Of a DNA stretch of 64,000 nt, positions 2,872 through 54,400 are shown piece after piece. Source of the stretch: Rhododendron vialii (lineage: Eukaryota; Streptophyta; Magnoliopsida; Ericales; Ericaceae). The stretch is from assembly GCF_030253575.1 (NCBI RefSeq), contig NC_080562.1:28183852-28247851 (forward strand), in the 5' to 3' direction. The translations under genes and the position numbers were made by a program. Position 1 is the stretch's first letter. Each line of letters opens with the position of its first letter. The notes beneath the pieces are model-generated. The model was not told where the DNA came from, ran no database searches, and saw nothing but the letters and a program-made list of their open reading frames with translations.

Positions 2872-5592
2872 GCCAAGGTGGTGATTGGAAATGTTAATGC
2901 TGCATGCGCTGCATGCCCATAACCATGCTTTAATAGGGTGTTGGTGTTCTAGTCAAGCATCTTTCTTGACCTTGGAAGACTTGTTTACCGGTTTAATCAA
3001 TTGTCCCAAATACGTTTTCAGACCGTACATTATTAGATAATTTACTTACATTATCATCCAGGTTGGAGTTTGTGGAAACAGCCTCTTTGCTCGCAGGGGT
3101 TGTCTCTCTGCTTCTTCTTTTTATTTTTTTATTTTTATGTGTAGTCAGATTATAGGTTTCTACTTATTTTCTACCGAAAGCTACATAAACTGAAATTCGG
3201 TGTTAGAAATTTATGATTATTTTTACCCCACAGTTTGCAAGCCCAACAATGGATTTCACGGCCTCGATCGCAAGCCATTTCTGATTGTTTCTGTCAGTTG
3301 ATCGTGTGGTCTTTACTCTCATCAATGACATTATCGAATAGCGATTTTACCTCTCTTCGTGTGCGAAAGTGCTGACTTTGAGAGGTCGAGAAGCCAAAAT
3401 CATTGCCCATGGATCGATGGTGCGTACTAGACTTTCTGTTTTTGTATTTCTTTTGTTTGGAATTTCAATAGTTCTTGCCAGTCTGTGTAGTAAGAGTGCA
3501 TTCCAATGGTTCTTCCCAATTCCCAATTGGACTTGGAATGTGGTCTGTACATGCTTATCGCAGATCATGCGATGCGGTATGTAGGAGGAAGCATTTGGTT
3601 ACAGTTGAGGGTAACACTAGAAGGAGGGGTAGATCATAATTGACATAAGAGGATTTGGTTGGGGTAGAGAGTGACACTAGGAGGGCTTAGGTGCTAAGAG
3701 TAAGAAAGTCAAGAATTCAACTCCTCTGAGGTGTTAATCTAACTATTCTAGCAATAGTAACTTTCGCCGAACAAAAAAGAGAGATTAACAGTACGAGAAG
3801 GGAGACATTAGAGGTGGTAATTCGAAGGGATCTAGGTTTTCTAAATATCATGAAACACAATGCCCTTTACAAAATTCAGTTAGAAAATGGATGCATAACC
3901 CAATTGATTGGGACTTACTTTGTTTGGTTTTGGAAAAAGAGTTTAAATTCTCTCCGTCGGCGGTGGAAACCATGGGGTTTTCCACCACTGCCATTGTGGG
4001 CCCACCGTGCATTTATTGTATTAATCTAAACCGTTCATTTTATAGGACTCACGGAATAGTATAACCCTACAAAAAATTAGCTTGATCAGAAATTAATATA
4101 TATATCCAAAAATAAATTTTCGTTTATCAAATGGAGGTTCATGGACAATCTGACTTTAAAATTAGACAATGACCGTCCATTTTATAAATCGAAATTCTAA
4201 TTTTGAAGCCTATAGAAGTCCAATCAAGTCTTTGTGATGCTAGTCAAAAGCAAAAATGGAAAAGTAATATTGGTAGCAGTTTTTTTTTTTTTACTTTCGG
4301 AAAGGGAATTAAAGCAATATTCATGATGCTATGTACTTATGTAGTAGTTAAATGTGAAAAGCAAGTTTGCGTTAAAAATATGTATGTGCAGCCAACGCGT
4401 TTATCAGGGACCACAACCTCGCGTCTATTCAGTCCTTATTGTCAGATTATCGTACTGGGTTAGTTCAAGCATGGGAGGCATCTAACACAACTATTTTTGT
4501 AGAGAACATTTTCAGTGCCGGGTGGGTACCATGTCACTGGCTGACGTGGTGCTCGAACGGGCACATCTGAGCCGTCCAAAAGTGTATTGTAGACTCAGTA
4601 AACTAAGAAGTCTATGAATTGATGACATTGTTTGCCCATTTACTTGTGTCTTTAGGTGGGTTTTGTTTCATTGTGATCTATGGAATGTACATGATTTGTT
4701 TACCACTCCACGTGCGAGTTGGAGTCGGGAGAGTGTACGTTGGAGCTTGCAATATTAATTAATTAGCAGCTCTCCAAAATTAATACATGAGCTTTTAGGT
4801 GACCTCTTTGCATATTGCTAATTGGTTTTGATTTCAATGCTTCGAAGACAAAACAAACCAAATTAAAAGAGAATATGCAAAATGAAATCAAGCTCATGCT
4901 ATGCCAGCTTATCATGAAGTTTTACCAAGGAAAGGTAGCACTGGGATATTTCCTTGTGATTTGATAATGGTTGCGATTCCCGCCTGTAAATGTCACATGA
5001 TTGAATAAAGTTAGGATAAAAAATGAACAAAAAAAAAAAAAAATGCATTTGGGAAGTTTGAATTGCAGTCACACCAAACGACTTGGGCTCACCCCATGTT
5101 GGTTCCCTCGTTGCCATTTTCCGATCCCCTCCAAGTGACCCCAAACCGTTTCCCATGGGAAACCACCCATTTAAAATTTACGCGTTGGAAGTTAGACTTA
5201 TTCCCTTATCCAATGACTGCATTTGAACTTTGAAGCATGGATTTTGGAAAAGTGTTCACGAAGAAAACAAGAGTAACAGGAACCATTTGAATTTACTTGT
5301 TGGAAGTTCCACTTCTTCCCTAATCCAGTAGCTGAATTTGTAATCATGGATTTGGGCAGTTGTTCATGAGTGAAAGGAGAGTGGCCGAACCTATTTGAAT
5401 TTTCTTCTGGAAGTTCGATTTCTTCCCTAATCTGGCGGCTGCGTTTGAACCATGCATTTGGGGAGTTGTTCTCTTAGGAAAAGGAGAGTAACTGGACACT
5501 TAAACAACAGTCAGCAAAAATCAAAACCACTCTACTTTGTACATTGATCTTCTCCGTTTAAGCTAACGCAAAGGCAGAGAAACTTTGTAAAT
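2872..5592. repeat. Flank copy 1, first part: duplicate of 39380-42125
   Basis: The sequence upstream of P1 aligns nearly base for base with that upstream of G1, for example around 3241/39781, 4860/41350 and 5400/41885, with small indels. No convincing coding sequence is present. The segment holds the middle of an Au-like SINE (3061-3098, GTGGAAACAGCCTCT) that has lost its 3' end here. It stops at 5592, where gypsy A is inserted, and resumes at 27749. Confidence 0.85.
5588..5592. repeat. Target-site duplication of gypsy A, left copy
   Basis: TAAAT immediately before the left LTR. The right copy is 27749-27753. Confidence 0.85.
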
Positions 5593-6171
5593 TGTAGGGG
5601 TTCGATTTGATGGGACCTTGACCTGAGTTAGTATTCCTCTTCCGTTGCTCCGTTCTCCTGCAACAAGTCACTAGGGCTGGAATAGCCCAGTGACCCTCCG
5701 ACGATCAAGTTAGATCTCAGAGGAGGATATAGATCTAGGGTTAGGGAAAGATGGCATACCTCTTTAGGTTAGAGTCCCTTTGTATTTATAGACCTAGGTT
5801 TGCTTGGCCTCCAAGCTAGCGCATGAAGGATACGCTCAGGTAACCGCCTCGGATGACATCACAGATGACGCACCGGATAAGGCGGTTATGAAGCACATGG
5901 CCAGACCTGACCTAGATGATCCTATCTGCCACGTATCGCTCTTGGTTCCCTCTTGGTCACCTCTTGTTATGCTACGTTCCTTCAAGAGACCTTAACGGAA
6001 TGCATGCTTCGGTAATTAACCGAAGCATTAACAGGAGGTTCGATACCGAGCGAGTAAATGGAAGGATATACGCTGTGGCCCGCCTGTGCAATCCTATAGA
6101 CCGTACCAATATGAGACCTCGGTCAACGATGGTCTGGCTAGGTTACCAAGGCCATAACCGAAGCCTCCACA
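5593..6171 (-). repeat. 3' LTR of gypsy A
   Basis: 579 bp, TG...CA. It is 11 bp longer than its partner because of a short repeat (CTTGGTTCCCT) near 5940-5955. Confidence 0.9.
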
Positions 6172-7063: not shown

Positions 7064-7859
7064 ATGGTTGTTGAAGTCTCCTCGGACAGTTCCAGCAGCT
7101 CTTCTTCTGCTAATCTTGAGGAGATCTTTGAGAAGTGTCGTGCCCAAGCTTTTTACCGAATTCCATTGGACGCCATTGAACCCTCGGACCCTCTTAGAGC
7201 TTCACGTCCTATCACAGCCTTCGTTCCTTGGGAGATGGAGATTCCCAGTACATCGGGCCATGGACCGGGCCCATTCGCCGATGCCCCTAAAGAGGTTCGG
7301 GGACGAAGGAGGCCGATGAGGCCGTGTCCCTATCTGAACCAGTATTTCAATGGGACCCCGGTTGCCTACGCCGAATTCAAAAGGGTTTACAGCATCCCTC
7401 CGGACGTAGAGGTTCGGCTGCTTCCTGACAACAACCCCAAGACCCTTCCTCACCGACCAGGGGAATTGATTTTTCCTTTGATGGCAATCGCTGAGAGAGG
7501 AGTTAGGTTCCCCCTTCATCAATTCGTCCGACGAGTACTCCGGACCCTTTCTCTTACCTCTTCCCAGCTCACGGTGAACTCTTACCGAATTATCACCAGC
7601 GTCATCGAGCTGAGGAGGCAGTTCAACTTGACCTTTGGGGTCGAAGAACTCTTCGGCGTGTATCTCGTGGGAGTCAACCGAGAGAGCAACCGATACTACC
7701 TCTCGTGCAGGACTGGATACGACACATTCCTTGTCGACCATCTCCCCGACTCCGAGGAGTGGGCGAACATTTATGTCTCGGTAACCGGAAATTTTATGTT
7801 CGGACCCGGGGAGAATGCAAATACCACTACCAGAGTTCAGTTTGGGACCGGGGCTCCTG
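7064..7859 (+). CDS. Antisense ORF of gypsy A, exon 1 (PF04195-like)
   Basis: Exon 1 encodes about 265 aa, opposite in sense to gag-pol. After a serine-rich start come motifs shared with the element B counterpart: YSIPPDVEVRLLP (B: YNIPENVGLELAP), RGVRFPLHQFVRRVL (B: GGVRFPLHPLLRQIL), and a middle part with SNRYYLSCRTGY (B: YNTYYFKVRRAE). This conserved block is typical of Tat-lineage antisense ORFs; the biochemical role is not known. A good donor (CCTG|GTTGGT) ends the exon at 7859. Joined to 21364 it keeps frame through the codon G|CT. The intron now holds a candidate LTR and all of element B. Confidence 0.75.
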
Positions 7860-7976
7860 GTTGGTAGAAATTACTCTTCGGTAGATGCTTTGAATGTTTT
7901 TGTGTAGAGACCCGTGATTTATTTTATTTTATTTTAGGCTGTATTTTTTTTTTTCTTCCTTTGTTAATGTACGGCC

Positions 7977-10232: not shown

Positions 10233-11204
10233 TGTAGGGGGATGAAAACAATTGGTACTTCGAATCAACTGGATCGCAACGGCTTATTCGTGCCTCTTCA
10301 CCGGAACCCTAGTTCGACGTCTGAACCCTAATCTGCAAAATAGACAGGGGGTGAGTGCACCTTTTCCTCTCGTGGCAAAGGCCCTCCGATGCCTTTGTTA
10401 GTATCACGTACTAGCAGTTAAACCCTAATTATCAGTAGGAAAGCAATAATAATGCAACGTATTGCGTACCTCTCACCTCTAGGTTTTCCTCATATTTATA
10501 GATTTATGGATGCTTGCTGTCCAAGCATCCTTATTGCCATAGGATTCCTAACTCGTATAGGAAACCCAGGATATCAAGGAGTCTCGTTTCCTTTATCAGT
10601 TTATGGAAAAGAGTCCTTTTAGGATTCTTTTCCTTTAAGAGCCGAACATCCCATACTCGTTGGGTATCTTTCTCAGATCCTATATTCTTGGGATCTTTAT
10701 CCCTATATGAGACATGACTATTCTGGAATCTTCCAGAGTATTCTCTCTGCTCCTACTCTCGATTGGAGTTCCATCTTTGTTCGGCCGTCTCATAGCCGAA
10801 CAGACGGCTTGGACCAGTTACCTCACATGTAACTGGTCCTTGAGCCCGTACAACCTTCCTGGACCATTGACTTCTCATGTCACTGGTCCATATTGCCGAA
10901 CACTTGTTTAGCATGATGACTGTCCTGTCTATATTCAAACTATGGTCCTACGTACCATTTATTCGGATATCGATTGCATTGCTTTCAACCCGTGATCACT
11001 CGTATCACGTGCTAGGTTCTTTACATCATCTGTTCGGCTGTATCATAACCGAACAGTCTATTTATAGCCATGACTTCTCATATCACTGGTCCATATCGCT
11101 GTTCACCGAACTACTCGGCGGTAAGTCTAGTCGTATTTACCACGTGTTCCTAGACATCACGTGTTCGATAACTAAATGTACCTGCTCGGGAATACCTCCC
11201 TACA
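10233..11204 (-). repeat. 3' LTR of gypsy B
   Basis: 972 bp, starts TGTAGGGGGATG and ends CCTCCCTACA. It contains many GCCGAACA/TGTTCGG and TGGTCCA motifs, and TTAGTATCACGTACTAG (10399-10415), which resembles the unit of the internal palindrome array. Confidence 0.95.
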
Positions 11205-11219
11205 ATTGCTCCCCAGCTT
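11205..11219 (-). other. Polypurine tract of gypsy B
   Basis: The minus strand reads AAGCTGGGGAGCAAT next to the 3' LTR. Confidence 0.65.
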
Positions 11220-11775
11220 CATATATTTACCACTGTTCGGGGGCAATATATGATGCTTAGAAACAGAATTCTATCTAGACCAAACTCTTTTGATCCCGTG
11301 CAGTAATAATTTCGATATCTTATTGATGCCTTTTGGCGCCTATGTCATTATACCATTTCGGGGTAAACGACTCCACGTGGCACGTTTCATATGCCTAGCA
11401 TTAACTTCGAACTGACGTTCTATGAAACGGCGTCAGAACGGTTTCTGCTTTCCGTTACTTTTTCCTGTAACGGCGTGAGAGGAGACGTTTCGTCTCCGTC
11501 TCTTACCCTTAAACCCCTGAAAGGGCTCTCTTTGGTTTTTCATCCAAAACATTCAAACTTTCAGTTTTTCTCCGTAAAGCTTTCCGCCATTGCCGCCGCC
11601 TGCAAACTCGATTGGATTCCAGGGAATCGTCACAATATTCTCGTAAGATTCTTGCTCTCATTCCCCTTCTTCTTCTTAGGTTTCTATCTGAGATCTCATT
11701 CTCAGATTTGGTGGGTCGTTTCTAGGGTTTCAATTCGTACCCATTTCCATCTTTTCTTCTTTTCTGAATATACTC

Positions 11776-13560
11776 ATGGCGGATGACAACCCTCCTAGAC
11801 CCAGTAAGTTTAGGAAGCTTTGTGATACCCCTGCTGCCATGGCGGCATTTAGAGAAAAATACAATATCCCTGAAAACGTAGGGCTTGAACTCGCTCCATT
11901 AGGAGCGGATAGGGATGCTGGATCGTGGGATAGAATGTGTATCCCAATCGTGTCCATTGTCGAAGGCGGGGTCCGTTTCCCCCTTCATCCACTCCTCCGC
12001 CAGATTTTAAGCTGGTACCGTCTTACACCCATGCAAGTTTCTACGAACGTTTTTAGACTGATAATGGGGACTATAGCCCTAAATGGGATTCTAGAAACCA
12101 ATTTAGGAATCTGGGACATCCAGTGGTGGTATAGTATAGTACTAAACCCTGAGTACAATACTTACTACTTCAAAGTTAGGAGGGCAGAGAAGCGCTTCGT
12201 GCTCAATCTGCCAGATTCTGCTCGTGACCATGAGATCGACTTCCTCTATGTAACTGGAGCATTCGAGCCTTTAGGGGAAGATGGCCAAGTGCTGGGGCTC
12301 CATTGCCCCCACATATGGGGCTATCCACGTATGCTCTTGATTTTCCTCTTTTACAATTCTTCATTTACTGCTTTCTCGTAGCTTTTCTCATGGACTAAAT
12401 TTGGTTTTTCAATTTGAATTTTGCAGCTGAAAACGTTAATCATCGTCCCAGACGTATACCAAGCAACATCCGAACAGAGGACATTAACAAAGTTCTGAAA
12501 TATAAAGGCGTGCCTGGTACCCGAACAGCTGGTCGGGGTCGTGACGCTGACGTACTTCTGGGATACGATCCTGCATACAGAGGTGTCATCGACAGGAGGC
12601 TCGCTCATCCTAGCACCAGCGCTGCCTCTACATCGACTGCTCCTCAGCCTAGGAGCACAAGAGCTAACGCAGGAGTAACTGTAGCTGGTCAATTGGGTGA
12701 AATCCCTATTTCCGAAGGTGTTCCATTACCTCGAGTTAGAGTTCGAAGATCCAGACAGGTCATTCCTCTTCAACCCGAACAGCCAGTATTGAATCTTGAC
12801 ACCAGTCAATCATCCTCTTCAGGTTATTCTCAATTTTCTCCTAACTCAAGCACCATGATACGTCAGCCTTTAAACCTCAGCTCCCTCCTCACCGTCTCTT
12901 CTCGGGGACGGGGATCTGGTCGGGTAGCTTCCACAGGGAACGCCCCCCCTGCACCCCGTCGCAACAGAGGAGGTTCGAACCGCTCCACTTCATCTCGTGA
13001 AGTGGAGACTACCATAGAGGCCAGTGATGCTCACAGAGACAAACGGCCTAGATCAGAAGACCCAACTGGTACTGCGTCCCAAGCAGATACCGAAACACAT
13101 CACCCCGTTTCACCAACTACCCAAGTACTTCCTCAAACATGGACTCCTCTATTCACTAGAGGAGACCGTCCCGTTCACCAAAAAGGCATCCTTTGAAGAT
13201 GGTTATCAGAAGGGTTTCGACGCCACAACATCAAGTTACGTCGAGCAGATGCCTGATATTCAAGATCAAATCTGGGTTGCCTGCTGGGAGGCATGCCTTA
13301 CAAAGGCAGGAGTTGCTGAGGACTCTCCCCTATGGGTTGAGAATGATCTACCAAGTCGCCAAGTTGCAGCTCAAGCAGATGATGTTGATCAACAGATTGA
13401 CAATTTTGCAGATGTTGATGAAGATATACAAGTTGAATCACAAAATGACGTGCAACCATCTGTTCAGGAAATGACCACTGAGATAGTTATCCCAGAGGTA
13501 CAAACTGCTGCTGCTGTTGCTGAGGCTGCCGTCCCTCTTGAGGTTCAGAACCTAGATTAA
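11776..13560 (+). CDS. Antisense ORF of gypsy B (PF04195-like, spliced)
   Basis: The ATG is at 11776. Exon 1 runs to 12328 (donor CCAC|GTATGC). An intron of about 98 bp ends in TTGCAG (12421-12426). Exon 2 starts at 12427 in frame (codon C|CT). Exon 1 carries the conserved block (GGVRFPLHPLLRQIL, WWYSIVLNPEYNTYYFKVRR). Exon 2 is basic and rich in Ser and Arg. Its frame stops at 13194-13196, while another frame overlapping from 13024 runs to 13560 with acidic sequence (FEDGYQKGFDATTSSYVEQM) resembling the C-terminal part of A's ORF (GYDEGWDAAGVEY). A third exon or a one-base shift near 13100-13196 is therefore likely. Convergent to the polyprotein gene; function unknown. Confidence 0.7.
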
Positions 13561-13719
13561 GATAAATCATCCGGCTGGTCTTGCATGACCATAGCCTTCT
13601 TTACCCTGCGTGGTAGCAGTACTATCAATACTTTATTTTAAAACAGGTATTCGGCCCTTCGTGGCATAACTTTTTTTGCTCGGCTTCCATGTTTGCTGCA
13701 TCTGTTCGTATGCAATTTC

Positions 13720-14385
13720 AATCTAAGTATTTCGTACTGTTTAAGCATCGTTTATGTGCATAAGTATTCGTACTTTAAGCAAATCTTACAAACATGCTTA
13801 TTTTGTATTGAGTCTAAGTTTCACGTACTTAAAAACATTTGTTTCCCAGTGTCTCGTACTGTTTTAAGTTTAGTACTTTACAAGTGTATTCATACTTGTT
13901 AAGTATCACGTACTTTCACAAAATCCCTTAAGTATCACGTATTTAGAACATCACACAAGTATTTCGTACTTGTGTTTAAGTTTCACGTACTTAATGTTTT
14001 GAAAATCTTACAAGTGTTTCATACTTGAAAATTTTACAAGTATACTTGTGTCTCAGTTTCACGTACTGAACTAAATGTGGCTTACATTTAAGTCAAGCCA
14101 ATATAGGTTCTCAAGTATCACGTACTTAAAACACCATATAAGTATCTCGTACTTTGAACGTCCATACAAGTATTTCGTACTTGTATTTGTTAAAAGAAAA
14201 CACACAAGTATTTTCATACTTGCTAAGTATCACGTACTTTAAGAAAATACATACAAGTGTGTTCATACTTGCATTCAAATGTATACCCAGGTTTCACATA
14301 CTTGGGATTCTATACAAGTGTTTCGTACTTGTATTTGTTAAGTGCCACGTACTTAAAAATTTATAAAACTTTTAAGTTTCACATA
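13720..14385. repeat. Array of about 23 short palindromes in gypsy B
   Basis: The unit is AAGTATCACGTACTT or ACAAGTATTTCGTACTTGT with variants; the arms AAGT(A)...(T)ACTT are inverted around a 5-7 bp centre. Units begin near 13725, 13815, 13901, 13957, 13978, 14113, 14139, 14168, 14227, 14316 and 14340, with others in between, spaced about 20-35 bp. The array lies between the 3' ends of the convergent antisense ORF and polyprotein gene. The spacers are AT-rich and not conserved. Short ORFs across it are artefacts of the repeat. Confidence 0.85.
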
Positions 14386-14618
14386 CTCAAAAGGTATACC
14401 CTGCTCCCCAATACGAATAAGGAGAACCAAACTCGTAGTTCGTATTTAAATACCACAACAGTTATTCGAAAGAAGTGATTTTATTCATAATCTGTAAAAC
14501 GCAAGAGGGCGTTACTCGTACCCTTGTTTTAAAAAATAATCAAAACTAGAACAAAGGAATTATATTCGTAATTCCCACACAATCACGTAGTGTAAATCCA
14601 AAACAGGATTTAATACTT

Positions 14619-17600
14619 CTAAACAAAGAACTTTCGTAAATTATGAACATTCCAAGGCCTTGGAATTGGATCACCATCCAAATCTGCCAATCGATAGGCT
14701 CCTATGCCTATAATCTCAGTTACTCTATATGGGCCCTCCCAGTTGGCCCCCAGCTTGCCTTCGTTAGCCACCTTGGTGTTGCCGAGCACTTTTCGTAGCA
14801 CAAGGTCCCCAACACCAAATTCTCGAGGGTGAACATGCTTGTTGTAGCTTTTCATCAGCTGTTCTTGGTAAGAAGCAAGATGTACCAAGGCTTTTTCTCT
14901 CCTCTCCTCGGCAAGGTCAAGCTCGATTTGAAGGGCCCTGTCATTGCCTCCACTCTCAACCAAAGCTGTCCTGTTGGTCGGCAGACCCACTTCCAGAGGT
15001 ATAACAGCCTCTGTTCCAAATGCCAACGAATAGGGGGTCTCTCCCGTAGACCTCCTAGGCGTTGTTCGGTGAGCCCACAAAACTAACGGTAACTCATCAG
15101 GCCATTTTCCCTTTGCTTTGTCCAACCTCTTCTTTATCCCATCTAGGATAGTTTTATTGGATGCCTCTGCTTGCCCATTACTCTGAGGGTAGGCTGGGGT
15201 GGAATAAAAATTTCTTATTCCATATTGGGCACAAAAAGTCTTGAATTTCTTCTGAAATTGGGATCCATTGTCTGTAATCAATGAATAAGGAACCCCAAAA
15301 CGAGTGATGATGCTTTTCCACACGAACCTTTCTATCATAGGCTCAGTGATTTTGGCCAGTGGTTCTGCCTCAATCCACTTTGTAAAATAGTCAGTTGCAA
15401 CAAGCAGGAATTTTCGATTCCCAGTTGCTTTGTGCAATGGACCCACGATATCCATCCCCCATTGAGCAAAAGGCCAGGGACTTGTTAATGGCACCAGATC
15501 TTCGGCGGGTGTTCGAATCATTGGTGAGAACTTTTGACATTTCTCACAAATCTTTACATACACCTTTGCATCTTCTTGCATGTGTGGCCACCAGTAGCCT
15601 TGAGTAATTGCTCGGTGGGCAATAGATCTGCCTCCAGCATGGCTCCCACATGTTCCCTCGTGGATTTCATGAAGGAACTTCTGTACCATCTCAGGATGTA
15701 CGCATAGCAAATAGGGACCCGTAAAGGATTTCCTATACAACTTACCCTCTGGGGACAGCCAAAACCTAGCAGATTTGACTCTTATCTTGTGGGCCTCCTT
15801 TTTATCAGAAGGGAGTATCTCGTCTCGTAAGAACTCCATTATTGGGTCCATCCAACTTGGTCCTTGGTTCACGTCCAAGACCAAGTCTACACTCCTCCCA
15901 ATGCTCGGCTCATTGAGGTATTCTACTGCCACCCTTCTTTTAAACTCTGTTGGTACTGCTGCAGCCAACCAAGCTAAAGAGTCTGCATGAGCATTCTGTC
16001 CAGAACTTATTTGCTCAATATATACCCTCTCGAAGGTATCAAGCAAGTCTTTTGCTGCCTGCACGTAGGCTACCATCTTTTCATTCCGAGTCTCGTACTC
16101 TCCGGACAGTTGATTCACAACAAGCTGGGAATCACAATACACCCTGACCCGTTCTGCTTTAAGGGTCTTCGCACTTCTTAACCCAGCCAAGAGTGCTTCA
16201 TATTCAGCCACATTATTCGATGCACTGAATCCAAGCCGAACAGAGAGTTCAATGAGAACTCCTTGAGGAGGAAAGAGGACAACTCCAATTCCAGAACCAG
16301 TATTGCACGCTGATCCATCAACGAATAACTTCCATTCTTTGGGATCCTGTTCGGCTACGGGTTGATCCTTCAAGGATGATGTCTTAGCTGCCTGTTCCTT
16401 TCTCGTAGGAGGCAAAGGAGCAACAGTGGGGGAAAACTCTGCCACAAAATCAGCCAATACCTGGCCTTTAATTGCTGTACGTGGCTGATACTCGAGATCA
16501 TACTGACTTAACTCTACGGACCATGTCGAGATCCGTCCCGAGAAATCTGCCTTTCGAAGCAGTGATTTTAATGGATACTCAGTATAAACCACAACCTTAT
16601 GGCTTTGGAAGTAGTGTGGCAATTTCCTGGTTGCTGTCCTAAGTGCCAGGACAAGTTTTTCTAAAGGCAGATATCTCGTCTCTGCATTCAACAACGTCTT
16701 GCTAACATAATAGATGGGGATTTGTTCGATCCCCAAGTCCTTCAACAAGACTGCACTTACTGCATGCTCGGAAACAGCTAAGTACAGAATTAAAGACTCA
16801 CCAGGCTGTGGAGTTGACAACAGTGGGGGCTCGGCCAGGTACTTCTTCAGGTCCTGGAAAGCTTGTTCACATTCTGCTCCCCATTCAAATCCCTCCCTTT
16901 TTTTCAATAACTGAAAAAAGGGTCTGCATTTGTCGCTTGACCTGCTGATGAATCTGTTAAGTGCTGCTGCCATCCCAGTCAGCCTTTGGACTTCCTTGGT
17001 AGTTTTGGGACTCTGTAATCTTTGTAAGGCATCAATCTGATCGGGATTTGCCTCTATCCCTCTCAAAGTTACCAAATGACCCAGGAATTTTCCTGAGCCA
17101 ACTCCAAACGCACACTTCGAGGCGTTGAGCTTTAATTTATACTTCCTCAGGATTTCGAACACTTCCTTTAGATCAGAAATATGCCCTCCCTTTTCTCGAC
17201 TCTTTACCACCATATCATCTATGTAAACTTCCAAAGTCTTCCCGATGAGCTTCTTGAACATAATGGTTGCAAGTCTTTGGTATGTAGCCCCAGCATTCCT
17301 CAGCCCAAACGGCATGACACTGTAACAGTATAACCCTCGTGGTGTGATGAACGAAGTCTTCTCTTGATCAGGTTCGAACATAGCAATCTGATGATATCTT
17401 CGATATGCATCGAGAAAACTCATTCGCTCGTAGCCAGATGTTGCATCAACCAATTGGTCAATCCTAGGCAAAGGAAAACTGTCCTTAGGGCATGCTTTGT
17501 TCAGGTCTGTGAAGTCCACACAGACACGCCACTTCCCATTCTTCTTCTTTACCACAACAGTGTTGGATAACCACTCTGGGTAATAGACTTCTCGTATTGC

Positions 17601-20297
17601 TTTGGCTTCCAACAAACGATCTACCTCCTCAATCACTGCATCTACATGCTGCACGGCTGCCCTTCGTTTCTTCTGAATGATCGGCTTGTGTTGAGGGTCA
17701 ATGTTTAAATGATGACAGATCACGTCTGCATCCACCCCGGGCATTTCCTCTGGCACCCATGCAAAAACATCAATATATTCCTTTAGAAATCTTATTGACT
17801 CAGCTTTTTCGTTTGCTGATAATGATTTCCCAATCAAAAAATATCTTTCAGGATCAATCTCGTTGATCTGAATCTTCTCCAGGCCCTCAACCACTTTTTC
17901 AGCCGGGCTTCTCCCAACATCCTCGATGGTTGGTTGATCTGGTACTTCTAGTGTGAGAACATGGTGGACCTTTGGGGTTGTTTTGATGATGGAAATCAAG
18001 CATTGCTGTGCTACCTTCTGGTTTCCTTTAAGGACTTCAATCCCATTTGATCCTGGAAATTTCACCATCTGGTGATATGTCGAGGAGACTGCTCTCATTT
18101 TGTGCAACCATGTCCTCCCTATAATCGCGTTATAGGAAGATGGGACATCGACTACCAAAAAGTCTGTCTTTAACACCACAGATCCAGCCCGAACAGGTAA
18201 AGTCACCTTTCCTAGGGGCCAAACTGCTCCTGCACCGAACCCAATTAGAGGTGTTGTTGATTGTTCTAAGTCTGATTGGGCCAGGCCCAGCTTCTTGAAT
18301 GCATCATAGTACAACACCTCTGTACAGCTCCCCGAGTCCACTAGAATTCTTTCGATGTCGTATTCCCCAACTCGTAGGGTTACGACCAACGCATCATTGT
18401 GGGGTATTTGGACCTCCGCCAAATCATCGTCACTGAATGCCATGCTCTCGTTGCATGCATTAGTCTCTCGCCCTCTCTTGTTTCCCAACCGCATCACGTG
18501 CTGATCATGCTTGACCTGTCTTTGCAACAGCCTCACCTCACTCCTCGTATAAGGTGCAGCCAACCCATGTATCATATGGATCACGCCTTTAGGGTGTTGC
18601 TCGTAACCCAGTTCCATGGCCTTCCCTTTCTCTTTAGGGTCCTCCTGGATAAACTCTTTGAGATAGCCCCGAGAGACCAAATCATCAAGGTGCCTCTTGT
18701 ATACCTCACAATCCTCGGTCATATGGCCCCAATCTTTGTGATAACTGCAGTGCTGATTCGTAGCACGCTTTGCATCTTTGTCTCCGCCTAGACTTGGGGG
18801 CCATTTGAAATATGGCTGATTCTTTATTCGATAAAGAATCCTGTATATTGGCTCCTTCCAAACCGTAGTGATAGAGAAGAAGGACTTGGGGTCAGGAGCT
18901 TGCTTGTCCTTGTATGGCTCTTTCTTAGCCTGCCCGTACTCCCTTCTGTCTTTGTAAGACTTGGGTTCAGGCTTATCCACCTTTTTGGCAGGTGCCTTCT
19001 GCTGTTCGGCAACCGTCCTGCCATCCTCACGGAGTATGTCATCCTCCATTCTGGCATGTTGCTCTATCCGTTCCATCAATTTAGCCAAGGTGGCTACTGG
19101 ATGTTTATTCAATGAACGGCGCAGCTCTCCCCGAACAGGCAAACCAGTTTTGAACGTAGCAATTGCATACTCTTCACTGCAACTTTCAATCTCGTTAAAA
19201 GTTTCCCAGTACTTCTTTGCATAATCCCTGATCTGCTCGTTCTCCTCCTGCTTCATGGTGGAAAGACTCTCAAAAGTTTTTGGGGCCTTTCTGCTCGTTA
19301 AGAACCGAGCAGTGAATTCTTCTGCCAACTGCCTCCATCCTCGTATGGATCGTGGGGCCAACTTATGAAACCAAGATAAAGCCACCTTGCCAAGACTGGA
19401 GGGAAACATCTTGCACAAGATGGAATCATCCCCCTCATGCATAAACATGGCCTGTTGGTAATGCTGTATGTGAGCTACGGGATCCGTATTTGTCTCGTAA
19501 AGTACGAACGCACCGTGCTTCACTCTGCTCGGCAACCTTGCTTCTTGTAGCCTCTTTGTAAAGGGAGAGGCTGCAATATTACTCAGGGCCTTGCGTGCTG
19601 CTTCTCGTGCAGTCACTGTCCCATCCTCTTGCTCCTTTGACTTGTGGGCCGAAGCCTTGACCCAATCAGCATCAGGTCTCTCGTACCTGTCTCGATGATG
19701 CTTTCTCGTGTCCTCTTCCTCGGGGGTAGAACTCCGGTCTCTGCTCCTCCTTTTTCGTGAAGAAGTCTTTCTCTCCGGTGTTCGGCTTCTACTTTTTCTT
19801 CCCCTTTTTCGTGGAGAAGCTTCGTGACGCCCTCTAACAGGACTTCTGCTCCTTCTTCCTCGTGAAGGATCCTTTCTGTATTGTACCATAGCATACCTAC
19901 TGCCTCTAGAATTTCCTCGAGACAGGCCAGAATCCTCCGGATGCTCCCTAATTCTTTCCAATTCTCTGATCTCATGCTCTCGTTTTTTAATCAGACGAGC
20001 ATACACCTCGACTTCTTGCCTCTTCCTATCAAGAACGTCGTCACTATGGTGCACACTCCTGGAGTGCGCGATTGATTCATCCCTTTGATGGGATTTACTC
20101 CTTCTCGTGGATCTCGAAGCCGTCTCTCCATCTCCTCTATTTTTGGAGTTATGATGCACGGTAAGGGGTCGGTCCTTACTCGTGTTCCTTCTGTGCCCAC
20201 CCTGGGGCTTTCTCGGAGCCCCAGGTGGTGATTTGTCCCTTCCCTCGTCTAACACATCTTTTGGTTCATGCGGCGTTGCTGGAGTTACTTCCACCAT
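14619..20297 (-). CDS. Gypsy B gag-pol polyprotein (gag-PR-RT-RH-INT)
   Basis: 1892 aa, uninterrupted, ATG at 20295-20297. Residues 1-230 are a basic Arg/Ser-rich head. The gag domain is about 244-420 (SLGKVALSWFHKLAPRSIRGW). A zinc-binding-like CSYHKDWGHMTEDC is at about 513-527. The protease active site VDSGS is at about 652. RT is about 860-1120 with YIDDMVV near 1025. A first RNase H-like region is followed by a second RNase H with LFVDGSA (about 1321) and CDSQLVVNQL; a second, archaeal-type RNase H is a known Tat-lineage trait. Integrase has an H-H-C-C region (about 1540-1590) and D-D-E residues in GMDIVGP (1614), TDNGSQ (1675) and GQAEA (1710). It ends at the YRVTEIIG...LRKFFV tail. Transcription would start in the LTR at 20347-21318. 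Confidence 0.96.
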   Translation of the reverse strand: MVEVTPATPHEPKDVLDEGRDKSPPGAPRKPQGGHRRNTSKDRPLTVHHNSKNRGDGETASRSTRRSKSHQRDESIAHSRSVHHSDDVLDRKRQEVEVYARLIKKREHEIRELERIREHPEDSGLSRGNSRGSRYAMVQYRKDPSRGRRSRSPVRGRHEASPRKRGRKSRSRTPERKTSSRKRRSRDRSSTPEEEDTRKHHRDRYERPDADWVKASAHKSKEQEDGTVTAREAARKALSNIAASPFTKRLQEARLPSRVKHGAFVLYETNTDPVAHIQHYQQAMFMHEGDDSILCKMFPSSLGKVALSWFHKLAPRSIRGWRQLAEEFTARFLTSRKAPKTFESLSTMKQEENEQIRDYAKKYWETFNEIESCSEEYAIATFKTGLPVRGELRRSLNKHPVATLAKLMERIEQHARMEDDILREDGRTVAEQQKAPAKKVDKPEPKSYKDRREYGQAKKEPYKDKQAPDPKSFFSITTVWKEPIYRILYRIKNQPYFKWPPSLGGDKDAKRATNQHCSYHKDWGHMTEDCEVYKRHLDDLVSRGYLKEFIQEDPKEKGKAMELGYEQHPKGVIHMIHGLAAPYTRSEVRLLQRQVKHDQHVMRLGNKRGRETNACNESMAFSDDDLAEVQIPHNDALVVTLRVGEYDIERILVDSGSCTEVLYYDAFKKLGLAQSDLEQSTTPLIGFGAGAVWPLGKVTLPVRAGSVVLKTDFLVVDVPSSYNAIIGRTWLHKMRAVSSTYHQMVKFPGSNGIEVLKGNQKVAQQCLISIIKTTPKVHHVLTLEVPDQPTIEDVGRSPAEKVVEGLEKIQINEIDPERYFLIGKSLSANEKAESIRFLKEYIDVFAWVPEEMPGVDADVICHHLNIDPQHKPIIQKKRRAAVQHVDAVIEEVDRLLEAKAIREVYYPEWLSNTVVVKKKNGKWRVCVDFTDLNKACPKDSFPLPRIDQLVDATSGYERMSFLDAYRRYHQIAMFEPDQEKTSFITPRGLYCYSVMPFGLRNAGATYQRLATIMFKKLIGKTLEVYIDDMVVKSREKGGHISDLKEVFEILRKYKLKLNASKCAFGVGSGKFLGHLVTLRGIEANPDQIDALQRLQSPKTTKEVQRLTGMAAALNRFISRSSDKCRPFFQLLKKREGFEWGAECEQAFQDLKKYLAEPPLLSTPQPGESLILYLAVSEHAVSAVLLKDLGIEQIPIYYVSKTLLNAETRYLPLEKLVLALRTATRKLPHYFQSHKVVVYTEYPLKSLLRKADFSGRISTWSVELSQYDLEYQPRTAIKGQVLADFVAEFSPTVAPLPPTRKEQAAKTSSLKDQPVAEQDPKEWKLFVDGSACNTGSGIGVVLFPPQGVLIELSVRLGFSASNNVAEYEALLAGLRSAKTLKAERVRVYCDSQLVVNQLSGEYETRNEKMVAYVQAAKDLLDTFERVYIEQISSGQNAHADSLAWLAAAVPTEFKRRVAVEYLNEPSIGRSVDLVLDVNQGPSWMDPIMEFLRDEILPSDKKEAHKIRVKSARFWLSPEGKLYRKSFTGPYLLCVHPEMVQKFLHEIHEGTCGSHAGGRSIAHRAITQGYWWPHMQEDAKVYVKICEKCQKFSPMIRTPAEDLVPLTSPWPFAQWGMDIVGPLHKATGNRKFLLVATDYFTKWIEAEPLAKITEPMIERFVWKSIITRFGVPYSLITDNGSQFQKKFKTFCAQYGIRNFYSTPAYPQSNGQAEASNKTILDGIKKRLDKAKGKWPDELPLVLWAHRTTPRRSTGETPYSLAFGTEAVIPLEVGLPTNRTALVESGGNDRALQIELDLAEERREKALVHLASYQEQLMKSYNKHVHPREFGVGDLVLRKVLGNTKVANEGKLGANWEGPYRVTEIIGIGAYRLADLDGDPIPRPWNVHNLRKFFV

Positions 20298-20330
20298 GGT
20301 CGTATTTCAAAAGGGAATTCTTTCGTTTCC

Positions 20331-20346
20331 CACAGACGGCGCCAAT
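20331..20346 (-). other. Primer-binding site of gypsy B
   Basis: The minus strand reads TGGCGCCGTCTGTGGG two bases inside the 5' LTR. TGGCGCCG-type sites are common in plant gypsy elements; the tRNA was not assigned. Confidence 0.65.
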
Positions 20347-21318
20347 TGTAGGGGGATGAAAACAATTGGTACTTCGAATCAACTGGATCGCAACGGCTTA
20401 TTCGTGCCTCTTCACCGGAACCCTAGTTCGACGTCTGAACCCTAATCTGCAAAATAGACAGGGGGTGAGTGCACCTTTGCCTCTCGTGGCAAAGGCCCTC
20501 CGATGCCTTTGTTAGTATCACGTACTAGCAGTTAAACCCTAATTATCAGTAGGAAAGCAATAATAATGCAACGTATTGCGTACCTCTCACCTCTAGGTTT
20601 TCCTCATATTTATAGATTTATGGATGCTTGCTGTCCAAGCATCCTTATTGCCATAGGATTCCTAACTCGTATAGGAAACCCAGGATATCAAGGAGTCTCG
20701 TTTCCTTTATCAGTTTATGGAAAAGAGTCCTTTTAGGATTCTTTTCCTTTAAGAGCCGAACATCCCATACTCGTTGGGTATCTTTCTCAGATCCTATATT
20801 CTTGGGATCTTTATCCCTATATGAGACATGACTATTCTGGAATCTTCCAGAGTATTCTCTCTGCTCCTACTCTCGATTGGAGTTCCATCTTTGTTCGGCC
20901 GTCTCATAGCCGAACAGACGGCTTGGACCAGTTACCTCACATGTAACTGGTCCTTGAGCCCGTACAACCTTCCTGGACCATTGACTTCTCATGTCACTGG
21001 TCCATATTGCCGAACACTTGTTTAGCATGATGACTGTCCTGTCTATATTCAAACTATGGTCCTACGTACCATTTATTCGGATATCGATTGCATTGCTTTC
21101 AACCCGTGATCACTCGTATCACGTGCTAGGTTCTTTACATCATCTGTTCGGCTGTATCATAACCGAACAGTCTATTTATAGCCATGACTTCTCATATCAC
21201 TGGTCCATATCGCTGTTCACCGAACTACTCGGCGGTAAGTCTAGTCGTATTTACCACGTGTTCCTAGACATCACGTGTTCGATAACTAAATGTACCTGCT
21301 CGGGAATACCTCCCTACA
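20347..21318 (-). repeat. 5' LTR of gypsy B
   Basis: 972 bp, practically identical to 10233-11204. Confidence 0.95.
20607..20614 (-). promoter_or_regulatory. TATA box in the 5' LTR of gypsy B
   Basis: TATAAATA on the minus strand, about 260 bp from the internal end of the LTR and oriented toward gag-pol. Confidence 0.5.
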
Positions 21319-23649: not shown

Positions 23650-24495
23650 TCGGTAACCGAGTACTATCCATAGAACTTCTTCAAGTTATTTGCATTCCAT
23701 GTTTTAGCTATGGGGGAACCATCCAGCTTCTCCAATTTGTAGTTTCCTGATCCGAGATGCTTGAGACACTTGGTAGGGGCCCTCCCAATTGGGCATTAGC
23801 TTTCGCTTTTTGGACTTCACCACCACTTTTTTCCAGACGAGATCGTCAGGCTTGAACGACCTAAGGCGGACGCTTCGGTTGTAACCTTTTGCAACCTCCT
23901 ATTGGTACGATACGAGCTTGATCCTTGCATTGTCACGTTCTTCTTCGGCTAAGTCGAGGTCCGAAGCAATGCTATTGTTGTTAACCGACTCATCAAAGTT
24001 TTCTGTACACATTGTTGGGAGTCCGACTTGGAGAGGGATGACCGCCTCTATTCCGAATGCCAAGGAGAAAGGAGTGCAACCAGTGGATCACCGGGGCGTA
24101 GTACGGTAGCCCCCGAGTACCCTGGGTAGCTCTTCGGCCCACTTTCCTCGGCGTGACTCGAGTCGTCGCTTAAGTCCAGATGAAATTGCCTTGTTTGCAG
24201 CCTCGGCCTGTCCGTTACCCTGGGGGTAAGTCGGAGTGGATGTGTCCCATTTGATGCCGTACTCATCTAATAGGGCTCGGTATTTCTGTCCAATAAACTG
24301 CCTTTCGTTGTCTGTAATAATGGCGAAAGGGACACCGAAGTGTGAAATGATATTTCGCCAAACGAAACGAATGATGTCTGTTTCTTCAATAGTTACCAAA
24401 GGTTCGGCCTCGACCCGCTTTGAGAAATAGTCTGTGGCGGTTAGGAGGAACTTAAATCCTCCTGGGGCAACGGGGACCTTACCGACGATATCCAT
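23650..24495 (-). pseudogene. Gypsy A integrase remnant
   Basis: The core begins MDIVGKVPVAPGGFKFLL and includes TDNERQF and NGQAEA, so the D-D-E residues are present (D in MDIVG, D in TDN, E in AEA). The frame stops after GYRTTPR at 24088-24090. Beyond it the C-terminal integrase continues with more stops (FGIEAVIPLQVGLPT, then LMPNWEGPYQVSQ) to about 23650. The H-H-C-C head, RT and RNase H are absent. Confidence 0.85.
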
Positions 24496-24533
24496 GCCCC
24501 ATTGGGGAAACGAATGATGTCTGTTTCTTCAAT
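24364..24533. repeat. 27-bp direct repeat at the gypsy A pol deletion
   Basis: An exact 27-bp sequence (starting GAAACGAATGATGTCTG) occurs at 24364-24390, its native place inside the integrase, and again at 24507-24533, next to the protease-integrase junction. The second copy is out of context and marks the rearrangement. Confidence 0.85.
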
Positions 24534-24620
24534 GAGATTAATCCGGGGGGTCTGTTTATAACTTCGGACGGCGTTGACGTAGCACTTCTTTGCCGCAGTT
24601 TGATCTCCGTACAAGTCTTC

Positions 24621-25378
24621 CTAGTGCCCATGAATACCAATGAAACGGACCACTTGGTGATAGGTGGAGGCAATCGCTTTAAGCTTATGCAGCCAGGTGC
24701 GCCTGACAATTGCGTTGTAAGGGCTAGGGACGTCGACTACCACAAATTCCGTTGCAAGGGTCACTGAGCCGGCGCGGACTAGAAAAGTGATCATGCCGAT
24801 GGGCCAGACCGGTGCTCCGTTGAAGCCGATAAGAGGAACTTCGGAGGGACGGAGGTCGGTGTCGGAAATTTTCAGATCTTTGAACAGAGAGTAGTACATG
24901 ACTTCAGCTGAGCTGCCCTGGTCCACGAGGACGCGACAGACGTTGAAAGTTCCGATGCGTAGCGTGACTACGAGGGCGTCGTTGTGGGGAAGCTGGATGC
25001 GGTCGAGATCCCTCTCGGTGAATGTTATTGTCCATTTGGAACCGTCATCAGTTCTGGGGCGTTTCGGTTCGGGACCAACCAACATGACCTGTTTGGAGGA
25101 GGAGGCCTCGCTCAGCTCGTCCCTGATGATTCGAGCGGCCTCAGAGTTTAGAGGACCATGTATGACGTGGATCGTCTGGACCTCTTCCTCGGTGTTTGTT
25201 TCTGTCTGTTGTGCCCGAGCCGTTGTCTTCTCGTGATCAATGAAGTTGCCGAGGTGGCCACCCGCAACAAGCTGCTCCAAGTAGGCCTTGAAGGGCTTGC
25301 ATGCTGTGGTGAAGTGACCCTGCTCGTTGTGGTAACTGCATCGGACGATGAGATTTTTGATTTTCCCATTTTCGGTCC
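24621..25378 (-). pseudogene. Gypsy A protease region
   Basis: A 219-aa open part (from 25280) has IQLPHNDALVVTLRIG and VDQGSSAEVMYYSLFK, the retroviral-type aspartic protease with DQG in place of DSG/DTG. It continues to YNAIVRRTWLHKLKAIASTY, homologous to YNAIIGRTWLHKMRA in element B, and stops at 24621. Upstream to 25378 are gag C-terminal and linker sequences in shifted frames. RT should follow but is deleted. Confidence 0.75.
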
Positions 25379-27097
25379 CTAGCTTTTGATTTGGGAAGGA
25401 GAAGAAAGGCTGATCCTTAACTTGATCGATGATCCGGTAGATAGGAATGGTGAAGACGGTTTTCTCGGCGTTGAAATCACTTGGCTTCGGTCCCCTCTTC
25501 TGCGACTACTTGATGGTGTTGACTTGTTTGTTGGCGTTGGGACAGGTGCTGAAACCGGTGTGGATACCGAGGTGTTTAACGTCTTTGAACTCGTAGGCTT
25601 CCCGATACCTCTCTCCGCCTTGGACTCGATGAGCTGACACCAACCCTCAATACGAGTCATAAGGTCCTTCATAGAGTTTGGCTTATGGTGAGTGAGGTCG
25701 TCGTAGACTTGCTCGTCCTGGGAGGTGAGACCGAGCTTGAATCCTCGGGCTGAGATGACGCCATCGCAACCCTCTATCTCATTGAATAGTTCCCAGTAAC
25801 GGCCGGCGTACTGCCGGAGCGTTTCGTCGTTCCTCTTGCGGAGGGCTAAGAGGGAATCGATCTCCTTCTCGTGCTTATTGCTTGTTACGAACCGAGCCAT
25901 GAAGGCATCACAGAGGGAATCGAACGAGGAAATTGACCGAGCCGGGAGTTGATTGAACTAAGTGAGGCCCAGGTTGCCGAGGCTTGCAGGAAACACTTTG
26001 CACAAGAAAGCATCGTCCGAGGGTTCGTTCCAAAGAAACAAAGACATGACAAGCTTGTATTGAACTAGGTGAGTGCACGCCTCGGTCTTGCCGTCGTATT
26101 TGGCAAACTTGGGTTGGGTGAATCCCTTGGGGGGGGTAACCGAGTCGATTTCTCTTGTAAAGGGGGAAGTCGTGTGTCGTGTAAGCCGCGTGTCGCGGTG
26201 AGGTCGGATCGAACGGTCGGGGCCGTCTGGACGCTCAGTCGCTGTACGCTTCTTGGGGACAAGTTTGTCCAATCGTTCATGTTCCTTTCTCTTTAGAGCA
26301 ACACTAACCGACTTCTTAGAGGAGCGTTCTCGGTGGTGATGGCGGTAGCTGTCCCGAGCGAAAGGCTCGAGGCGCTCAGTGATCGGGCTCCTGCTGTGTG
26401 CGCCGTCGGGGTGCGAGACGATGGGACTTCTGGCTCGAGGGCCTTTCGGGCGCTCGCGGTATTTCCTAGTCTGGAACTTCACAAGGTCGTCATTTCCTCT
26501 GGCCGCCCTTGTGAGGCTAGGGGTAGATTCCCGGCCTGTCTTGCCCACTCGGACCGAGTGGGTGGAAGAGGCAGAGACGCTCTCAGCACCGAGCCTTTCG
26601 AAGGCCGATGGTCTCCTTCGAAGCTGCATAGGGGAACGGGAACGGTCCCTATGCGATGTGTCATTTATGGCTCGAGCGTCTGCCGGTCTTGGTGGCTCGA
26701 GACGATCCTTGACTGAGGGGCGGGATCTGTGCTCCAGCAGGTGACCGACTTCGCGACTGTGAGGGGGAGTGTGACGGTCCTTCCTTCCGCCGCGACTCCT
26801 TGAGGAATGAGATGGGGAGATTTGGAGGAGGTGCTTGATCTCCGCCAACTCGTCTCGGACGTGTCTGTCGCGGTCCATCACCGTCGTGAGGTCGTCGATT
26901 TTCCGCTCAAGATGGCGGATGTAGGAGTGGAGCTCGGAGGATGGGCCTGCATCTGGAATTGACGCTCCGGCGCCAACTCCGACGGATACATGGGTCTTTC
27001 CAAGGGCGGTTGCTCTGCCGGAAGCCAGGCTGTGGTCCACGAGGGAACCGAGCCCGTGGGCGGTACCACCGTGATGCGCATCGTCGATCTCAACCAT
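25379..27097 (-). pseudogene. Gypsy A gag
   Basis: The ATG is at 27095-27097 (MVEIDDAHHGG). A Ser/Arg-rich head leads to a retrotransposon gag domain (KFAKYDGKTEACTHLVQYKL; CKVFPASLGNLGLT). A stop (25958-25960) replaces the Trp expected from the B paralogue (LSWFHKLAP), followed by ARSISSFDSL and MARFVTSNKHEKEIDSLLAL to 25379. The single TAG for TGG would truncate gag before its second half. Confidence 0.85.
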
Positions 27098-27178: not shown

Positions 27179-27180
27179 AT

Positions 27181-51435: not shown

Positions 51436-54400
51436 TCACTCAATTGGCTCTTTACATCTCTTCCTATTGTGGTTTCCCAACTTTTCACACCTCCCACACC
51501 TTATTTGTCTCACCTTCTCCCCCTTTGATCGAATTCTTTGAACCTTAGGTCTATCCCGCGGCCTTCTTGTCTTAGGAGGAAGAACTACACGGTTCTCTTT
51601 TGTCACTTCTGGAGCTCCGAGAGTGGGAATAGGATTTATCATACTCTCATACGACAATCGGAAAGCTTCAACGGTGTAAAAAGGATCTATGTAGTTTGAA
51701 ACTTGGAGGCCAACCTTTTGAATAGCCGTCACTGCATGCACACAAGGAAAACCGTTCAACTGCCATCGACAACATGTGCACGTCCGTCTCTGAACATCAA
51801 CTACAACTGTCGGAAGGGAGAACACTTCAAAAACATCTTCACTTACCTTTGCCACAGTCCACGACCGACCTTTGTCGAAACTTGTGACCAACTTCTTATC
51901 CATTTCAGGACACACGATGCCATTCCACTTCCATGACTGTTGCCTCCTATCACACATTTGCTCTATTAGTTTAACCCTTATCGTGTCAATTGCATTCAAA
52001 ATTTACAAATGACGGGCTTCCAAAATCCATCTGTTGAAAGACTCAGCTGGATTTGAACACATGTCCCCATATCTTCTACCTTCAAAATATGCATTTGCCC
52101 ACTTGTCAAGTGGGCAACGATTCAACAAAATCCTTAGCTTTTGGACCACCAACATTGCAGAGTTCTTTAAAAGCTTCCTCATAATCAAAAATCGATGGTG
52201 CATATGCACAATAAGAAAACAACTCGACTACTCTGTCCCTAAAACCATTAGACAATCTGCCCTTAAACTTGTCCCTCAAATTACACTTCAGATGCTGCAA
52301 ACAATACGAATGATATCCATTGGGAAAAACCTCTGGAATACCTTTCAAAAGCCGAGAATGACGATCTGTTAAGAATGTTATTGGACGAGATAACAGAATT
52401 GTTGACAACTTTCTCAAAAACCAAAGCCAATTCTCGTCAGTTTCAGAATCAGCAATGCCAAAAGCCACTGGAAACAATCCTAATCCAAAAAAAAAGCAAC
52501 AAGCAACATTAATCTACATTAATATATTCATGGTATAACATTGTAGGGGGATGAAAACAATTGATGCTTTCTGATCAACTGGATGGCAACGGCTTGTTCG
52601 TGCCTCTTCACCAAAACCCTAATTCGTCGTCGGAACCCTAATCTGCAAAAATAGACAGGGGGTGAGCGCACCTTTGCCTCTCGTGGCAAAGGCCCTCCGA
52701 TGCCTTTGTTAGTATCACGTACTAGCAATAAAACCCTAATTATCAGTAGGAAAGCAATGAGAATGCAATGTCTTGCGTACCTTTTGCCTCTAGGTTTACC
52801 TCATATTTATAGATTTTCGTATGCTTGTTACCCAAGCATTCCTGTTGCCATAGGATTCCTAACTCGTATAGGAAACCCAGGATATCAAGGAGTCTCGTTT
52901 CCTTTATCAGTTTATGGAAAAGAGTCATTTTAGGATTCTTTTCCATTAAGAGCCGAACATCCCATACTCGTTGGGTATCTTTCTCAGATCCTATATTCTT
53001 GGGATCTTATTCCTTTATGGGACATGACTATTCTGGAATCTTCCAGAGTATTCCTTCTGCTCCTACTCTCGATTGGAGCTCCTTCTTTGTTCGGCTGTCT
53101 CATGGCCGAACAGACTACCTGGACCAAGGACTTCACATGTAACTTGGTCCAAACGTAATCAAAATGTCTCTTATCTGCCGAACAGATAGTTTACACCAGT
53201 GACTTGTCATGTCATTGGCCTTTATTTAGCCGAACAGATTGCATGGACCAGGGACTTCACATGTCATTGTTCCATATCGCTGTTCTTCATACTGCCCGGA
53301 GATAAGTCCAGTCGTATTCACCACGTGCTCCAAAACATCACGTGTTCGGCAACTAAATGTATTTGCTCGGGAATACCTCCCTACAAACATAATCAATGCA
53401 AATTAGTCCTTTGTATCTTAGAATCTAAGGGAAAATATAACGTTATCTGTATTTATTTATTAATCTGCTATGACTGCATATCAACAGAAAACAATAGATG
53501 TTATCTATATTAAACTTGTCTCCCAATCTTTCAAATAACATAACATAAACAGAAAACCAATATTGAACAGACAAGAAGATGAATAAAAATAACTAACCTT
53601 GATCGCCATCTTTTCCTATAGCTCCGAAAAGGGTTCCAATGTACCTCCCCTTCAAAAAAGTCCCATCAAGCGCCAACAAAGGACGGCAGTAATTGAAGCC
53701 TTTGATACACGCATCAAATGCTACAAAAATCCTTCTAAAACAATTAGTTTTGTCACAATACTCAACATCAATAACACTTCTTGGGTTTTTCTCCTTCGCT
53801 ACCTCAGCATACCACCTTAGTAGGTCAAAAGACAATGCATAATTTCCATACAGCTCATCACCTGCCTTCTCAACCCCAAACCAAGCATGGTGATAACTGA
53901 TTTTACTTCCATAATACTTCTCAAAAAAATTCACTGCTTCTATTGGTGCATAGTTTGTCTTAGTTCGAACTTCCTCCCTAATCTGTTTAGCAACCAACTT
54001 TGAACTCATCCGAGGATTCTTCGAACTAGCAAAAACACCAACACAACTGTGATTCTTCTCAAACTCCCTAATACAAAAGAAACCGTTAGATCTCTCAATG
54101 GTTGCATGAATAAACCATTGACAACCAGATTCTGTATATTTTTTTGAACATTCCGTCGTTACTCTAGTCTTGTCACTCTTCAAAAACTTATATACAAATC
54201 CGACTTCAATAGCATACATTGCCAGACAATCCCTAAATTCTTTTACTCCGCCTCTAAACTCTTGGCCAACATGAGTAATCAACTTAGCCCAACCAGCAGA
54301 AAGACGAACAGTCTCGTGGTGCTGACAAAACCTCTCAAGTGGATCTTCTTCTACTTCATGCATAGTACTACTTTGACCAACTTCAAAACTTCTTCGACAT

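Follow-up and report, generated by a model that had tools for sequence, protein, structure and literature searches.

Why does a plant retrotransposon carry some two dozen short palindromes between the ends of two convergent genes, and what might read them? The question is raised by a 64,000-nucleotide stretch of Rhododendron vialii DNA (the window, to whose numbering all positions refer), in which a Retand-like element, here called element B, holds a dense array of dyads (Table 1).

Table 1. Positions of element B, its genes, the dyad array and the related LTR sites in the window
Feature	Position	Strand	Details
Element B, Retand-like Ty3/gypsy retrotransposon	10233..21318	-	gag-pol on minus strand; LTR pair; CCCTG flanks both ends
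3' LTR of B	10233..11204	-	972 bp
LTR dyad site TAGTATCACGTACTA	10399..10413	+	in 3' LTR of B
Antisense TRP28 gene (Transposase_28, PF04195)	11776..13560	+	ORFs 11776-12381, 12414-13196, 13024-13560
Array of 23 dyad units	13725..14388	+	mostly AAGT-N7(8)-ACTT; centres TCACG, TTTCG, TCTCG and variants
gag-pol ORF	14619..20297	-	1892 aa: gag, RT, RNase H, second RNase H-like domain, integrase
5' LTR of B	20347..21318	-
LTR dyad site TAGTATCACGTACTA	20513..20527	+	in 5' LTR of B
Solo LTR, B family	52542..53386	-	two aligned pieces, 91% and 84%; AACAT on both flanks
LTR dyad site in solo LTR	52710-52724

A dyad array in a Retand-like element

By its structure, element B is a young Retand-like Ty3/gypsy element with LTRs that are 99.9% identical over 972 bp; the Retand-like label reflects domain content rather than an RT tree. 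Two features of Retand elements are found in it: an antisense TRP28 ORF lies between pol and the 3' LTR, and the region from pol to the 3' LTR spans ~3.4 kb (14619 to 11204), the published range for Retand being 2,933-6,566 bp (PMC11963269). The first TRP28 ORF matches PF04195 at E=1.5e-4 (22.3 bits, under the curated cut-off of 26.2), and this family is matched at E<=1 by 36 of 60 aligned TRP28 members, the copy of B included; the second and third ORFs of the antisense gene gave no match in the domain scan. The closest named TRP28 match is a Rhododendron molle protein (78%). A putative intron with GT..AG borders was placed by eye at 12328-12426. In the window copy, the reading frame of the antisense gene also shifts at ~13190, where the second ORF overlaps the third, by either a second intron or a frameshift.

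The array lies between the converging ends of the two genes, with ~165 bp separating it from the TRP28 stop and ~230 bp from that of pol. About 23 palindromes had been reported there in a preliminary description, and 23 units were indeed placed, all in one orientation (CGTACT occurs 14 times in the array, AGTACG never). Exact inverted repeats (arms >=6, loop <=8) number 10, whereas 100 dinucleotide shuffles average 2.5 and never exceed 6; in an inverted-repeat scan of the 64 kb the two segments covering the array took the top ranks. In the window copy, half-site words fall within units in 16/16 cases for AAGT[AG][CT], 18/18 for [AG]TACTT, 20/21 for AAGT and 18/19 for ACTT; CpG is found in 15 of the 23 units, and spacers hold just two. 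The units recur as described, at start-to-start distances that range more widely than the 20-35 bp first given (16-59 bp, mean 29.5). The spacers, described as not conserved, are mostly unlike one another, apart from a few places where a block of two units was duplicated (13880-13924 with 14204-14248, 89%; 14161-14193 with 14309-14341, 94%). Tandem Repeats Finder (TRF) reports a single 2.6-copy piece at 14112-14182, so that surveys based on this program could miss such an array.

The two arms of a unit change together, in agreement with the preliminary description. Watson-Crick pairs fill 47 of the 69 outer cells (pairs -3 to -1), compared with 32.4 +- 3.4 when 3' arms are dealt among the units, and none of 20,000 deals reaches the observed count. 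The same score is 25/39 for a non-redundant subset of 13 units (p=0.003), 21/30 for the ten units with a TCAC centre (p=0.086) and 26/39 for the thirteen others (p=0.009); all these p-values are too small, since the units are related by duplication. The Watson-Crick excess is 14.6 on register. Moving the register outward by one or two positions lowers it to 2.3 and 5.7, respectively (three pairs scored), and moving it inward lowers it to 0.0 and 4.0 (two pairs and one pair); some single off-register cells also reach 4.0.

The core of the unit is common to the array and the LTRs, as had been claimed: AGTATCACGTACT occurs six times in the 64 kb, three times in the array and once each in the two B LTRs (10400 and 20514) and the solo LTR (52711). 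The LTR dyad site is exact in all 30 LTR loci examined in the host genome, which are the best-scoring of 1,988 LTR candidates and 99-100% identical and thus make a weak test of its conservation. A TATA-like stretch, judged by eye, suggests that the gag-pol transcript probably starts ~50-60 bp upstream of this site. The B LTRs (10376-11170 and 20490-21284) are also rich in distinct dyads, such as GGACCAGTTAC..GTAACTGGTCC and TGTTCGGC..GCCGAACA. Compared with the solo LTR, the stems of the LTR dyads differ at 32 of 229 positions and the remainder at 74 of 543, which is equally often and gives no sign of extra constraint. When 159 segments of the window were ranked by local folding z-score, the solo LTR (52801-53400), the B LTRs and the array made up the top seven.

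Conservation of the unit among copies of the B family

The host genome (532.6 Mb in 13 contigs) was searched with TRP28 exon 1, the best 150 matches among 2,498 candidates were scored, and the sequence downstream of TRP28 was read in the lowest-ranked 20 of the 150 (93-98% protein identity). Absence of the array from most intact family members had been named in advance as an outcome that would refute the earlier interpretation, but 18 of these 20 TRP28-selected copies carry it, with 11-19 units each. The two copies without a proper array (L160 with 0 units and L168 with one) were left out of the alignment counts, which rest on the other 18. A search with the array itself gave at least 47 matches, with 40 of 1,029 candidates scored; the 28 copies found by this means (L066-L093) were excluded from the evidence for presence.

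Units change more slowly than spacers. Measured against the window, the 18 divergent copies show substitution levels of 0.184 (stems), 0.209 (centres) and 0.317 (spacers); their aligned arrays are 70-86% identical to that of the window, with ~28% of the aligned positions gapped. In 9 closer copies the corresponding levels are 0.022, 0.021 and 0.066. Block amplification differs among the diverged copies L164, L154 and L157, and L164 holds a two-unit block of ~57 bp three times; amplification of different blocks in different copies implies that the arrangement turns over while the unit stays.

The arms, whose independent drift was the other refuting outcome, do not drift independently across copies. 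A set of 137 distinct units was called by the right core only ([GA]TACT fixed, left arm disregarded); the left AGT is present in 114 of them, and Watson-Crick counts at the outer pairs -1 to -4 exceed the dealt means (114 v 94.8, 75 v 51.4, 70 v 46.7 and 63 v 50.6), whereas the left inner position +3 varies (T 61, G 42, A 33, C 1; n=137). Part of this covariation comes from the existence of two related unit classes, in which the TCAC centre goes mostly with T..A flanks and the TTTC centre with C..G flanks. In the 18 copies, Watson-Crick cells of the window that have changed on both sides are Watson-Crick again in 72 of 124 cases, a count that has no shuffled control, in which the cells are non-independent and to either class of which alignment errors may contribute; a further 18 double changes, from cells that are non-Watson-Crick in the window, fall outside the 124. 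Single changes from a Watson-Crick pair gave 35 G.T, 31 A.C and 80 other mismatches.

A second family with the unit and a lineage without it

Family C was defined as loci 80-83% like P0049 (best 150 scored of 2,411), an R. molle protein 52% identical to the TRP28 of B over 81% of the query; the likeness between B and C proteins is known through P0049. AGT-type units follow the TRP28 stop in four of the six C copies read (L176-L179, with 6, 6, 13 and 9 units, L176 and L177 being nearly identical), and a stricter pattern still yields 6, 6, 10 and 9, against 0.24-0.34 in letter shuffles. The same four copies hold 4, 4, 1 and 4 GCAT-ATGC dyads with a centre that is mostly TTCGTA; such a dyad is in effect an AGT unit in which three arm pairs have been swapped together. 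The other two copies were counted as misses: L174 has no AGT unit within ~1 kb past the stop, and L175, which resembles another insertion, shows nothing of note. Patches of the B and C arrays can still be aligned, mostly at 68-84%, so that their likeness is not confined to the units. In the one C LTR read (L180), which is 79% identical to the B LTR, the LTR site is TAGT-CTTTCGT-ACTA, compared with TAGT-ATCACGT-ACTA in B. The arms are retained while the centre has moved to the other main class of the array, and this switch, seen in one LTR, is the best single sign that LTR site and array have one reader.

Element A is an older Retand-like element with LTR-like parts at 5590-6171 and 27178-27748 (97% identical) and internal parts at 7064-7867 (+) and 23670-26560 (-); it was apparently split by the insertion of B. 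Its TRP28 (7355-7795) is 33% identical to that of B, and no array is present in its convergent region, nor in ~1.1 kb past the antisense ORF in L181 and L182, which belong to an A-related subfamily and have open TRP28 frames. With the array missing from three A-lineage stretches, it is in this sample a trait of B and C and not of Retand elements at large. Matches to the unit in viral and prokaryotic collections (61 stretches, one match each) were taken as chance; no TRP28 relative was confirmed in the viral_contigs collection, and the bacterial collection gave four weak matches.

Candidate readers of the dyads

The spacing of the arms is nearly fixed. Among 127 distinct AAGT-N0..9-ACTT pairs, 100 have a gap of seven and 20 a gap of eight, against ~0.4-0.8 per gap length in shuffles, and the GCAT-ATGC dyads of family C have N8 in 12 of 13 cases (not de-duplicated). 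Half-site centres therefore lie 11-12 bp apart, or about one helical turn, which would suit a dimer bound to one face of the DNA and which the loop of a hairpin would not need. On a DNA-site reading, the covarying arms would represent classes of homodimer sites.

By analogy with VANC proteins, the array may be a docking platform for an element-specific regulator, most likely TRP28 or a partner, with a VANC-like outcome; of the readings considered we favour this one, tentatively. The ~20 operator-like DNA sites of the array would each consist of two half-sites one helical turn apart on which a protein dimer docks, and each LTR would supply one site of matching grammar. The putative reader is the TRP28 protein encoded antisense in the element, or its partner, with AAGTNTCACGTACTT as the putative target. 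Occupancy of the sites in the 3' noncoding region and in the LTRs would mark copies of the element, and marked copies would stay transcribed or unmethylated, as happens with VANC on VANDAL motif arrays. TRP28 is proposed because it co-occurs with the array, is predicted to bind DNA and has a nuclear homologue in Grande (PMC11963269, PMC7264820). The sequences directly show the sites, their occurrence in two families, the covariation of the arms, the fixed spacing and the common LTR site; from these we infer that a protein binds, that TRP28 is its likely identity, where the transcript starts and that copies are activated or spared silencing. Several observations weigh against the proposal. The TRP28 model (11776-12381, pLDDT 89.5) matches none of the solved folds, and may possibly represent an undescribed one; the unit is alike although the TRP28 proteins of the two families share only about half their residues, as could equally be expected with a host reader; the A lineage bears TRP28 and lacks the array; the region upstream of the TRP28 gene itself (11205-11775) contains no unit; and no helical phasing of unit centres relative to one another was seen. 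The earlier interpretation, a protein-binding array shared by LTR and internal region, is supported in part: the common site grammar holds, and both further copies and a second family retain it.

A host DNA-binding dimer, for example a factor of the SBP/SPL type, that reads the dyads as an enhancer or silencer array of the element is an unlikely alternative reader. SBP/SPL-type factors have a GTAC core. GTAC is present in 105 of the 137 distinct units, called with [GA]TACT already fixed, the motif is common to families whose TRP28 is ~52% identical, and one-turn spacing suits any dimer. However, GTAC is missing from 32 of the 137 units, the AGT arm is more constant in the window (22-23 of 23 per position) than GTAC (16/23), and the array is present in only some of the sampled families.

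That a hypervariable 3' repeat region simply turns over, with duplication and conversion keeping units alike without any function, is quite unlikely. Arrays of this kind are frequent in Retand elements and have no known role (PMC11963269); block duplications, unit numbers that differ among copies and the patchwise alignment of B and C arrays are all in keeping with simple turnover. Duplication would, however, bring the spacers along, and these differ ~1.7x (divergent copies) to 3x (closer copies) as much as stems; moreover, the arms covary, and an LTR site outside the array obeys the array grammar in B and in one C LTR.

It is similarly improbable that the units are RNA hairpins in overlapping 3' UTRs of the convergent transcripts, with a role in processing, stability or the control of sense-antisense pairing. 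The covarying arms and the double changes that restore pairing would suit hairpins, and the array folds better than shuffles (z -6.4 on the + strand and -4.7 on the - strand with 100 shuffles; -6.7 and -3.4 with 20). On the + strand, the inner mismatches seen in the window are of the G.T kind (6 at +3 and 14 at +4), and inverted repeats number 20 when + strand G.T is allowed (null mean 9.7) and 15 when A.C is allowed (null mean 12.1). Against this stand the spacing, fixed at 7-8 where a loop could vary, and the lack of strand preference, both in the nearly equal numbers of G.T and A.C among single changes in the 18 copies and in the outer pairs of the 137 distinct units (G.T 33, A.C 46); inner positions of the latter are not comparable between strands, because the right core was fixed in calling them. 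In addition, +3 and +4 show no covariation in the window, single hairpins are weak (0 to -6.1 kcal/mol, + strand), and the site is shared with the LTR. Fixed spacing and outer wobble pairs without strand bias favour a DNA dimer site, and the hairpin reading was demoted on these grounds.

A boundary or 3'-end element separating convergent transcription, suggested by the position between the TRP28 and pol stops, is very improbable, since genomic RNA must pass through the array to reach the 3' LTR and an LTR site close to where transcription probably begins would be unexpected.

Comparison with known systems

In maize En/Spm, TnpA binds many short motifs near the element ends and counters silencing. 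These arrays, which consist of subterminal sites in a DNA transposon, resemble the present one by description and not by sequence. Arabidopsis VANDAL elements and their VANC proteins offer a further parallel, with arrays of a short motif repeated in noncoding element DNA and an element-coded candidate reader (PMC5735166, PMC10398659). VANC21 binds YAGTATTAY repeats (PMC5735166); the LTR site TAGTATCAC differs from this motif by one mismatch, and none of the 23 array units contains it exactly. The two systems differ in several respects. VANDALs are Mu-like DNA transposons, whereas B is an LTR element; VANC carries DUF1985/DUF287 (PMC5735166), neither of which is among the families matched at E<=1 by 60 TRP28 proteins; VANC targets vary considerably between related elements, whereas the unit is common to B and C; and binding and demethylation have been demonstrated for VANC (PMC5735166) and are hypothetical for the B array. 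The comparison with VANC is accordingly meant as a functional analogy.

Tandem repeats of Retand elements are alike in lineage type, in location between pol and the 3' LTR, in the nearby antisense TRP28 and in a copy number that varies between copies (PMC11963269). They are defined by TRF as tandem, variable and family-specific, whereas TRF recovers only 2.6 copies in B, whose short dyad units are separated by dissimilar spacers and recur in two families and in the LTR. Dyads are not mentioned in the available part of that account (PMC11963269), and no description of a palindromic array in Retand elements was found among titles and abstract openings in the literature. The array is real and occurs in two families, and here the pairing of an element-coded regulator with a motif array would be found in an LTR retrotransposon. 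Antisense TRP28 is reported, with no function assigned to it, in 97% of recently active Retand clusters (PMC11963269). A conserved array adjoining TRP28, together with an LTR site of like grammar, provides a defined candidate DNA ligand, with which the question of DNA binding by TRP28 becomes directly testable and element-coded anti-silencing can be addressed in LTR elements. Were the proposal true, which we consider rather unlikely at this full reach, it would represent a counterpart of VANC that arose independently, and would explain what a gene present in most recently active Retand elements does. In sunflower, Retand shows a local dip in CG methylation, as do eight other lineages (PMC12844716). 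Elsewhere in the window, at 44883-45546, a 165-bp sequence is repeated four times in tandem (94% matches) and overlaps a 266-aa ORF.
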